From positions 1-64,000 of the forward strand of contig JACPYV010000018.1 in assembly GCA_016195825.1 (NCBI GenBank): DNA of 64,000 nt, written 5' to 3'. This document shows positions 21,008 to 22,761 of this stretch, in pieces. The notes under the pieces were generated by a model. The model searched no databases. It was not told the DNA's origin and saw nothing but the letters and a program-made list of their open reading frames with translations. The DNA is from Burkholderiales bacterium. GTDB lineage: Bacteria; Pseudomonadota; Gammaproteobacteria; Burkholderiales; Burkholderiaceae_C. The position numbers and the translations under genes are program-made. The first letter of the stretch is position 1. Each line of letters opens with the position of its first letter.

Positions 21008-21664
21008 TCAGGCGATCCCCACCACCTTGTGCATCTGCACCGACAGCCGCCACTGCGGATGTGCCATGCAGTAGGCCACCGCGGCCCGGGTGTGTTCGCG
21101 CTGCAGCACCGAGTCCATCGGCTGAAGGAAGAAGTTCTGGAAGTCGAGCCCGGCAAACCGCTCGGGCTGGGCCAGCGGCTGCGGGTAAACCAGCTTCAAC
21201 TCGTGGCCCGAGGTCAGCACCAGCGGCGCGTCGGCCTTGGGGCTGACGCAGATCCAGTCCAGCCCGGGCGGCGCGGGTTGCGTGCCGTTGGTCTCCACGG
21301 CGACCTCGAAGCCGCGCGTGTGCAGCGCATCGATGAGCGGCGTGTCCAGCTGCAGCAGCGGCTCGCCGCCGGTGCAGACGACATACGGTTTCCCACGGTC
21401 ATGCGCTGCGGCGCCTTCGGCACCGCGAGGCCAAGCCTTGGCGATCGCATCGGCCAGCGCTTCGGCATCGGCGAACTTGCCGCCCCCCTCGCCATCCGTG
21501 CCGACGAAATCCGTGTCGCAGAAGGTGCAGACCGCCGTCGCGCGGTCCTGCTCGCGGCCGGTCCAGAGGTTGCAGCCGGCAAAGCGGCAGAACACGGCCG
21601 CACGGCCGGCCTGGGCGCCTTCGCCCTGCAAGGTGAAGAAAAGCTCTTTAACGCTGTACGTCAT
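21008..21664 (-). CDS. queE: 7-carboxy-7-deazaguanine synthase QueE (radical SAM)
   Basis: A 218-residue protein: MTYSVKELFFTLQGEGAQAG at the start is the substrate-binding opening of QueE. The [4Fe-4S] radical SAM cysteines are the variant C-x14-C-x2-C (CNLWTG...CTFCDTDF), then VVCTGGEPLLQ and VAVETNGTQ. It converts 6-carboxy-tetrahydropterin to 7-carboxy-7-deazaguanine, the step after QueD, in queuosine/preQ0 synthesis. The ATG overlaps the stop of the upstream QueD-like gene as ATGA, so two consecutive pathway steps are translationally coupled. Confidence 0.95.
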   Translation of the reverse strand: MTYSVKELFFTLQGEGAQAGRAAVFCRFAGCNLWTGREQDRATAVCTFCDTDFVGTDGEGGGKFADAEALADAIAKAWPRGAEGAAAHDRGKPYVVCTGGEPLLQLDTPLIDALHTRGFEVAVETNGTQPAPPGLDWICVSPKADAPLVLTSGHELKLVYPQPLAQPERFAGLDFQNFFLQPMDSVLQREHTRAAVAYCMAHPQWRLSVQMHKVVGIA

Positions 21665-22761
21665 ACCGGAATCAGCTCCTCCGAATCCGCGCGACTGACG
21701 ATGGCGCCGGAGCCGCGTGTCTCGTACAAGTCCACGCGGTCGATCTGCGGCAGCACGCCGCCGCCCTCGCGCAGCACCCAGGCTGCGATGCTGGCCGCGT
21801 CACCGTCCGGCAGGTTGGCGATCTCGTACAGCGGGTGGTGGTCCAGCCGCTTGAAGAGGGGGTTGAACAGCGTCTTCACGTCGCCGAAGTCCACCGTCCA
21901 GCCCATCACCTGGTCCAGCGCTGCCGCCAGGTGCAAGCGCAGCGTGAAGGTGTGGCCATGCGTGCCGGCCAGCGGATGGCCGCCCGGCGCGTGCTGCAGC
22001 CGAACGGCGCTGTCCAGCGTCATCTCCTTCCAGATGCGGTAGCTCTGGCCGTTGAAGTTGGCGCCGCACGAACCGGTCTCGTAGACGGTGATCCAACTCA
22101 GCTCCGGCAGCACCGGCTTCAGCCGGGCCCACAGCCAGGCCGAGATGTTCTCGCTGGTTGGGTTGTGCAGACCCGGGATGTCGTTGAGGCAGCTGTAGTT
22201 CAGCTCGAAGTGCAGCGGCGCCCAGACCTCGTCGAGGTGGTCGTAGTCGATCGACAGGTCGCGCTCGCCCAGGTCCGCATTGGCGTGCAGGATGACCTCG
22301 AAGCCATGACCGTGCATGCGGCCGCACTGGTGGCCCGCCGGCACGTTGGGCAGTTGGTGCGCGGCCTGGAAGCGGTAGCGGCGCCACACGTGGGCGTGGC
22401 CGGCGCCGTCCAGGTCGACGCCGCTGTGCGGGGTGCTCTGCACGCCCACCTGCACGATGCCGGGCACGTCGGCATTGAGCCGGCTGCGCACCCAGCGGGC
22501 CAGGTTTTCGTCGGTAGGCTCGGCGAGGTGGTCGTTGAGCAACGCATGATCCAGCGGCGCCACCGTTGCGGCCATGCGCGTGCGCAGGCTTTCCACTTCA
22601 CCGCCGGTGAACGGCGCCCAGCCGCCGGGCAGCGCCGCGCGCACGGTCGCGAAATAGCTGTGGCCGTGCAGGCCGTGGCTGCGGTGCGAGGCGGGCAGGG
22701 CGGGGATGCGGCAGGCCGACTCGAAGCCGGCCGAGGCGCAATGCAGAACGGAAACAGACAT
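21661..22761 (-). CDS. queD: Triple-domain 6-carboxytetrahydropterin synthase (QueD-like)
   Basis: A 366-residue protein made of three PTPS/QueD domains of about 122 residues (1-125, 126-247, 248-366); ordinary QueD is one. Compared with the E. coli pattern FEAAH...GHKCGRLHGH...LDHH...KE, repeat 2 keeps the zinc ligands His135, His150, His152, the catalytic Cys146 and Glu228, but has Asn188-Tyr189 in place of the Asp-His dyad. Repeat 1 keeps Asp71-His72 and His32/His34 but has Cys17 for the first zinc His, Ser28 for the Cys and Gln108 for the Glu. Repeat 3 keeps Asp307-His308 and Glu347 but has Val253 and Leu264. Active-site parts are therefore split between repeats. It precedes and overlaps queE. 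Confidence 0.88.
   Translation of the reverse strand: MSVSVLHCASAGFESACRIPALPASHRSHGLHGHSYFATVRAALPGGWAPFTGGEVESLRTRMAATVAPLDHALLNDHLAEPTDENLARWVRSRLNADVPGIVQVGVQSTPHSGVDLDGAGHAHVWRRYRFQAAHQLPNVPAGHQCGRMHGHGFEVILHANADLGERDLSIDYDHLDEVWAPLHFELNYSCLNDIPGLHNPTSENISAWLWARLKPVLPELSWITVYETGSCGANFNGQSYRIWKEMTLDSAVRLQHAPGGHPLAGTHGHTFTLRLHLAAALDQVMGWTVDFGDVKTLFNPLFKRLDHHPLYEIANLPDGDAASIAAWVLREGGGVLPQIDRVDLYETRGSGAIVSRADSEELIPV

Follow-up and report, generated by a model that had tools for sequence, protein, structure and literature searches.

In enzymes of the PTPS family the active sites lie between subunits, each subunit lending the zinc/Cys/pterin half to one site and the Asp-His half to another. 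Rat 6-pyruvoyl tetrahydropterin synthase, the subject of Burgisser 1995, reportedly has an intersubunit catalytic triad. The mammalian and Plasmodium 6-pyruvoyl tetrahydropterin synthases are described as dimers of trimers in which six zinc sites are buried between adjacent monomers, and the account of the Plasmodium enzyme counts the zinc His residues and a Glu among its active-site residues (PMC7546909). A Cys is named as the nucleophile in PTPS (PMC2229834), and in one set of motif definitions CxxxHGH marks QueD, or PTPS-I (PMC5041015). The principle that a fused or mixed trimer can be left with one surviving interface site is already known from herpesvirus dUTPase and yeast PPCDC. The monomeric herpesvirus dUTPase is described as a product of duplication and fusion with one active centre drawn from motifs of different domains, and the dUTPase of Drosophila virilis as three fused units that retain all three sites (PMC12524310). 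Yeast PPCDC (Hal3/Vhs3/Cab3) is reported to be a heterotrimer whose single site combines a His of one subunit with a Cys of its neighbour (PMC4626798). In the open-licence literature, to which our search was confined, we found no earlier description of a three-domain QueD.

The window analysed here, the whole stretch of 64,000 nucleotides from contig JACPYV010000018.1 of a Burkholderiales bacterium, carries on its reverse strand an open reading frame with an ATG start (21661..22761) for a protein of 366 aa plus stop. Three PF01242 matches lie within this frame, which bears out the initial annotation's claim of three QueD-like domains in one chain. The protein overall scores 177.8 bits against a cut-off of 22.4, and the three domains, with 38.7 bits for repeat 1, 84.8 for repeat 2 and 61.9 for repeat 3, are each above the cut-off as well. 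On the reverse strand, repeat 1 (aa 1-119) occupies 22405..22761, repeat 2 (aa 120-239) 22045..22404 and repeat 3 (aa 240-366) 21664..22044; the boundary of repeat 1 at aa 119 was placed by the secondary structure of an AlphaFold2 prediction. The same protein matches TIGR03367, the NCBIfam QueD equivalog (151.4 bits, cut-off 89.25), and does not reach the broader PTPS superfamily model TIGR00039 (104.3 bits, cut-off 125.5). Where a QueD would be expected to be a single domain of about 120 aa that assembles into trimers or hexamers, this chain has 366 aa and three domains. The AlphaFold2 prediction of the chain, made from an alignment of 69 sequences, has a mean pLDDT of 89.9 and a pTM of 0.89, which favour a fixed arrangement of the three repeats. 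The first Foldseek matches are single-domain QueDs (2oba, 4ntm and 4ntk).

When the repeats were mapped on single-domain QueDs, all the residues named in the initial annotation (Cys17, Ser28, Asp71-His72, Cys146, Asn188-Tyr189, Glu228, Val253, Leu264 and Asp307-His308) were found where it had placed them. Repeat 2, which would supply the zinc/Cys/pterin half of the proposed site, has all three zinc ligands (His135, His150 and His152) together with Cys146, within 22306..22359 on the reverse strand, and the QueD motif CxxxHGH, here C146-GRM-HGH, occurs in this repeat only; repeat 2 has the motif in all 194 three-domain sequences compared. It also has Thr202-Ser203-Glu204 of the NPTSE motif (22150..22158, reverse) and Glu228 (22078..22080, reverse), which we presume to be the pterin anchor from its role in the PTPS family. 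At the place where Asp-His is expected, repeat 2 has the degenerate pair Asn188-Tyr189 (22195..22200, reverse). In repeats 1 and 3, respectively, the first zinc His is replaced by Cys17 and Val253 and the Cys by Ser28 and Leu264, and in repeat 1 Ser109 stands in the position of the Glu. Asp-His pairs are present in both, as Asp71-His72 in repeat 1 (22546..22551, reverse) and as Asp307-His308 in repeat 3 (21838..21843, reverse), the latter being the proposed catalytic dyad and the mark of the Asp-His half of the site.

These assignments leave part of the initial annotation standing and correct the rest. Its statement that repeat 2 alone keeps the complete zinc site and Cys146 holds, but the Glu is not restricted to this repeat, since repeat 3 has Glu347. 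Similarly, repeats 1 and 3 do lack the Cys and the first zinc His, but their zinc sites are otherwise present: HGH occurs in all three repeats, in repeat 1 as His32-Gly33-His34 (22660..22668, reverse), so that repeats 1 and 3 are short of the first zinc ligand only, and in repeat 1 Cys17 could itself act as a ligand. No single repeat has the full set of three zinc His residues, Cys, Asp-His and Glu; only repeats 2 and 3 together supply it. Counted per chain, and not per repeat, the set of active-site residues is complete.

Conservation was examined in 194 three-domain sequences, comprising the window protein, 80 loci and 113 frames from genome searches. They form 155 clusters at 95% identity and 43 at 60%, with a least pairwise identity of 32% among the 43. 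The set excludes gene pieces (L142, L175, L176, both parts of L204, and L206), single domains and the three-domain matches G283, G926 and G1035; the source-genome copy is counted twice in the 194 (as the window and as L122), a duplicate that is removed in the 155 clusters. Ten residues, namely H135, C146, H150, H152, T202, S203, E204, E228, D307 and H308, are invariant in 194/194. The first zinc His occurs in 0/194 sequences in repeat 1 and 0/194 in repeat 3, and the Cys in 2/194 and 0/194, respectively. Position 17 of repeat 1 is Arg in 94 sequences, Cys in 85, Leu in 8, Ala in 5 and Val in 2. A complete Asp-His dyad is found in repeat 3 of all 155 clusters, in repeat 1 of 46, the His of this repeat being mostly Tyr in the relatives, and in repeat 2 of 26. 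A zinc/Cys half can be combined with a dyad in nine ways, and just one of these, repeat 2 plus repeat 3, gives a full set in 155/155 clusters; repeat 2 is completed by the repeat 1 dyad in 46/155 and by its own in 26/155, and the remaining six pairings are complete in none. That the same split, with zinc, Cys and Glu in repeat 2 and Asp-His in repeat 3, recurs in every sequence argues that it is not due to chance.

The division extends beyond the catalytic residues. Of 43 consensus columns, defined as conserved in at least 90% of 15 single-domain QueDs, repeat 1 keeps 6, repeat 2 keeps 22 and repeat 3 keeps 12 at the 95% level or above; 29 are kept by repeat 2 or 3 and 14 by neither at that level. 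Repeat 3 alone retains the GWxxDF..P..LDH block, and repeat 2 retains the zinc/Cys, NPTSE and ET columns. The columns retained by just one of these two repeats, 24 in all, form 5 runs, as few as which were seen in 330 of 100000 shuffles, and the columns kept only by repeat 2 flank a single main block kept only by repeat 3. Taken together, these complementary blocks of repeats 2 and 3 add up to one QueD site.

Which repeats pair was also addressed with a mean-field coupling analysis of the 194 sequences (about 88 effective), scored over whole structural elements as the mean of the five strongest pairs. The regions were defined by secondary structure but chosen after a first pass, which makes the following values supporting and not decisive. 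For the site half of repeat 2, the coupling score is 5.47 sd with the dyad half of repeat 3 and 3.28 sd with that of repeat 1, and the preference has the same sign in 26/27 resamples. The strongest pair between the site half of repeat 2 and the dyad half of repeat 3 is 145-300, beside Cys146. Averaged over the ring, coupling from repeat n to n+1 is 4.39 and from n to n-1 is 3.50, with this direction in 25/27 resamples; taken alone, repeats 1 and 3 show the direction weakly (4.01 vs 3.87 and 3.69 vs 3.36). Couplings within repeats are stronger, as expected, with a mean of 5.23. The coupling analysis thus favours, at the level of sequence covariation, a pairing of the repeat 2 site half with the repeat 3 dyad. 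Repeat 1 was rejected as the dyad donor on this difference in coupling and on the minority of clusters in which its dyad is complete. These results support the initial proposal of a covalent pseudo-trimer with a single composite site, and they place the partner dyad in repeat 3 and not in repeat 1.

A check on the phylogenetic range of three-domain QueDs showed that many other bacteria have them. A scan of GTDB species genomes gave 89 encoding stretches, the best 80 of which were taken and all aligned; on realignment these best 80 of 89 are 57.9-92.9% identical to the window protein and include named isolates of Roseateles, Pelomonas, Paucibacter, Inhella and Ideonella, in keeping with the order Burkholderiales. 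A profile built from the window protein and 68 of the 80 loci (alignment A1) was used to search further genomes. Uninterrupted three-domain frames were found in at least 28 of 150 genomes of the source family and at least 60 of 399 of the source order, in which there were 2 more broken by a contig end or by N and 15 family codes were represented. At least 19 of 369 genomes in the class sample carry such frames, 17 of them outside the source order, and at least 14 of 329 in the phylum sample, 11 of them outside the source class and in two families. These carrier counts are lower bounds because few candidates were scored per genome (13 in the family search and 5 in the order search).

Several of the loci deserve separate mention. 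Split or truncated forms were rejected as natural variants, as the frame of G319 is broken by an N run and that of G381 is cut at contig ends. L142, part of repeat 3, and L206, repeat 1 followed by a stop, are gene pieces and apparently decayed copies, each being all that its genome has of the gene. In one genome (G102), two full-length three-domain queD genes (L152 and L205) lie on the same contig, separated by about 52 kb. Close relatives, at 89% and 67% identity, occur on contigs of assemblies named Methylotenera and Actinomycetales (L017 and L051, respectively), and these two contigs are likely mis-binned.

The phylogeny of the repeats bears on their origin. In a tree of 68 domains, made from 15 triples, 15 single QueDs and 8 of a second single-domain type, each repeat forms one clade (support 100/100, 98/98 and 99/95), and all three repeats together form one group within the single-domain QueDs, with a support of 84/82 that is below the starred level. 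Each repeat was again one group in a quick tree with 22 triples. The trees used 15 or 22 of the 43 representative triples, and the long-branched triple L231 was excluded from the tree with 15. Repeat 1 has the longest stem (2.1) and repeat 2 the shortest (0.57). The clade pattern and stem lengths fit one triplication followed by unequal decay.

The genomic context agrees with the initial placement of the gene in the queuosine pathway. The stop of queD overlaps the start of queE (21008..21664, reverse strand; TIGR04508, 366 bits, cut-off 240) by 4 bases, and queC (200.9 bits) and tgt (531.8 bits) are present in the source genome on other contigs. Across 193 three-domain loci, queE lies on the same strand at -60 to 150 nt downstream in 155 and elsewhere in 2, and it was not found in the examined flank of 36. 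A PF01242 search of the source genome (93.35% complete, 207 contigs) gave no match outside the three-domain gene, which rules out a separate single-domain QueD there, not absolutely given that completeness. Of 90 other carrier genomes, searched as two sets of 45, 89 likewise gave no such match outside a three-domain frame. The separate single-domain queD that formed one half of the refuting condition in the initial annotation was not found in these genomes. In the one remaining carrier, G015 (L155), a PTPS-family match lies elsewhere on the chromosome. A sole PTPS-family gene, a queE neighbour and the CxxxHGH motif of repeat 2 together point to a QueD function.

Based on these observations, we consider it highly probable that one old triplication fused three QueD subunits into a covalent pseudo-trimer with a single composite site drawn from repeats 2 and 3. 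The gene product would be a 6-carboxytetrahydropterin synthase (QueD), the enzyme of the second step of queuosine precursor synthesis, with activity predicted from its sequence features. One of the three interface sites would have been retained, in which the zinc bound by His135, His150 and His152 of repeat 2, with Cys146, Thr-Ser-Glu 202-204 and Glu228, is complemented by Asp307-His308 from repeat 3. The remaining two sites, formed by the zinc half of repeat 1 with the dyad of repeat 2 and by the zinc half of repeat 3 with the dyad of repeat 1, would have decayed. Each chain would then bind one zinc, with repeats 2 and 3 paired in space, and stacking of two chains may give a particle of six domains that has two sites.

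Other arrangements of the composite site have to be weighed. If the ring ran in the opposite direction, the zinc and Cys of repeat 2 would be met by Asp71-His72 of repeat 1, a pair that is present in 48/81 of the window protein and its close relatives and whose Asp71 is kept in 171/194. His72 is Tyr in 117/194, while Asp307-His308 never varies, and none of the nine coupling blocks scores lower than the one that links the dyad half of repeat 1 with the site half of repeat 2, which makes this direction the least probable of the readings considered. The site could also be formed between chains, from repeat 2 of one and repeat 3 of another within a larger assembly; contacts within and between chains look the same in both conservation and couplings. 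We consider this very unlikely, as one chain by itself is predicted to form an ordered unit and the trimer ring of the PTPS family can close with three fused subunits alone. It is just as hard to credit that the chain is a pseudo-enzyme or catalyses another pterin reaction of the PTPS-II or PTPS-III type, with QueD activity coming from elsewhere. Two of the three sites are clearly dead and the TIGR00039 score falls under its cut-off, but the source genome and nearly all other carriers gave no PTPS-family match outside a three-domain frame, queE directly follows the gene at most loci, and the motif of repeat 2 is CxxxHGH with Gly147 in 194/194, and not CxxxxxHGH or ExxHGH, by the motif definitions in PMC5041015.

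A more substantial question is posed by repeat 1. Its HGH is invariant in 194/194, although the other parts of that zinc/Cys site are gone. A purely dead site does not account for this; the motif may have a structural role, or it may belong to a site with another use. A chain with more than one working site, in which Cys17 or Arg17, His32 and His34 make up a site for a metal or ligand that serves in catalysis, regulation or the binding of a partner, is an unlikely reading that nonetheless has evidence behind it: position 109 is Ser in 184/194 and Asp84 is present in 150/155 clusters. A Cys-His-His set is able to bind zinc. The Arg found at position 17 in nearly half of the sequences would not, the catalytic Cys is found in just two repeat 1 sequences and the Glu is gone, and a structural role for the HGH strand is simpler. 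The narrower form of the idea, that His32 and His34 with Cys17 or Arg17 face the degenerate dyad of repeat 2 as a second, non-catalytic site for regulation, a metal, an anion or QueE docking, is slightly less probable again. If it were true, fusion of the trimer would have allowed an enzyme site to be given up in return for a different function.

The single composite site from repeats 2 and 3, our preferred reading, can be set beside the described systems. Like the single-domain QueDs (PTPS-I/COG0720; E. coli 4ntk, 4ntm and 3qn0, and P. aeruginosa 2oba), the protein has their fold in each repeat (Foldseek TM of 0.93, relative to target length, for 4ntk/2oba), the CxxxHGH zinc/Cys motif in repeat 2, Asp-His, Glu, a queE neighbourhood and a TIGR03367 match. 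In contrast, the six distinct PDB sequences matched are of 115-141 aa with one domain, and here three domains share one complete residue set. The mammalian and Plasmodium enzymes (PTPS-II / PTPS-III) differ in having six equal subunits with six sites, another motif spacing and other products. The dUTPases share the fusion of a homotrimer with interface sites into one chain, and, as in the herpesvirus form, conservation places one complete active-site residue set over two domains of one chain, with the pairing suggested by the couplings; unlike QueD, they have an unrelated fold and reaction, and the herpesvirus form has two domains. Yeast PPCDC likewise goes back to an ancestral trimer with interface sites and has one active site per trimer, but its chains are separate, not fused, and it is a flavin enzyme of coenzyme A synthesis.

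For annotation, the consequence is that the three-domain QueD would be taken for a dead enzyme if the residues of just one repeat, whichever it is, were inspected. The protein also offers a natural experiment on the conversion of a symmetric enzyme with intersubunit sites into a single chain, two of the three sites having apparently been lost in complementary ways and the same one-site solution held across distant lineages. It lets one ask whether one site per three domains suffices, and why this state persists.
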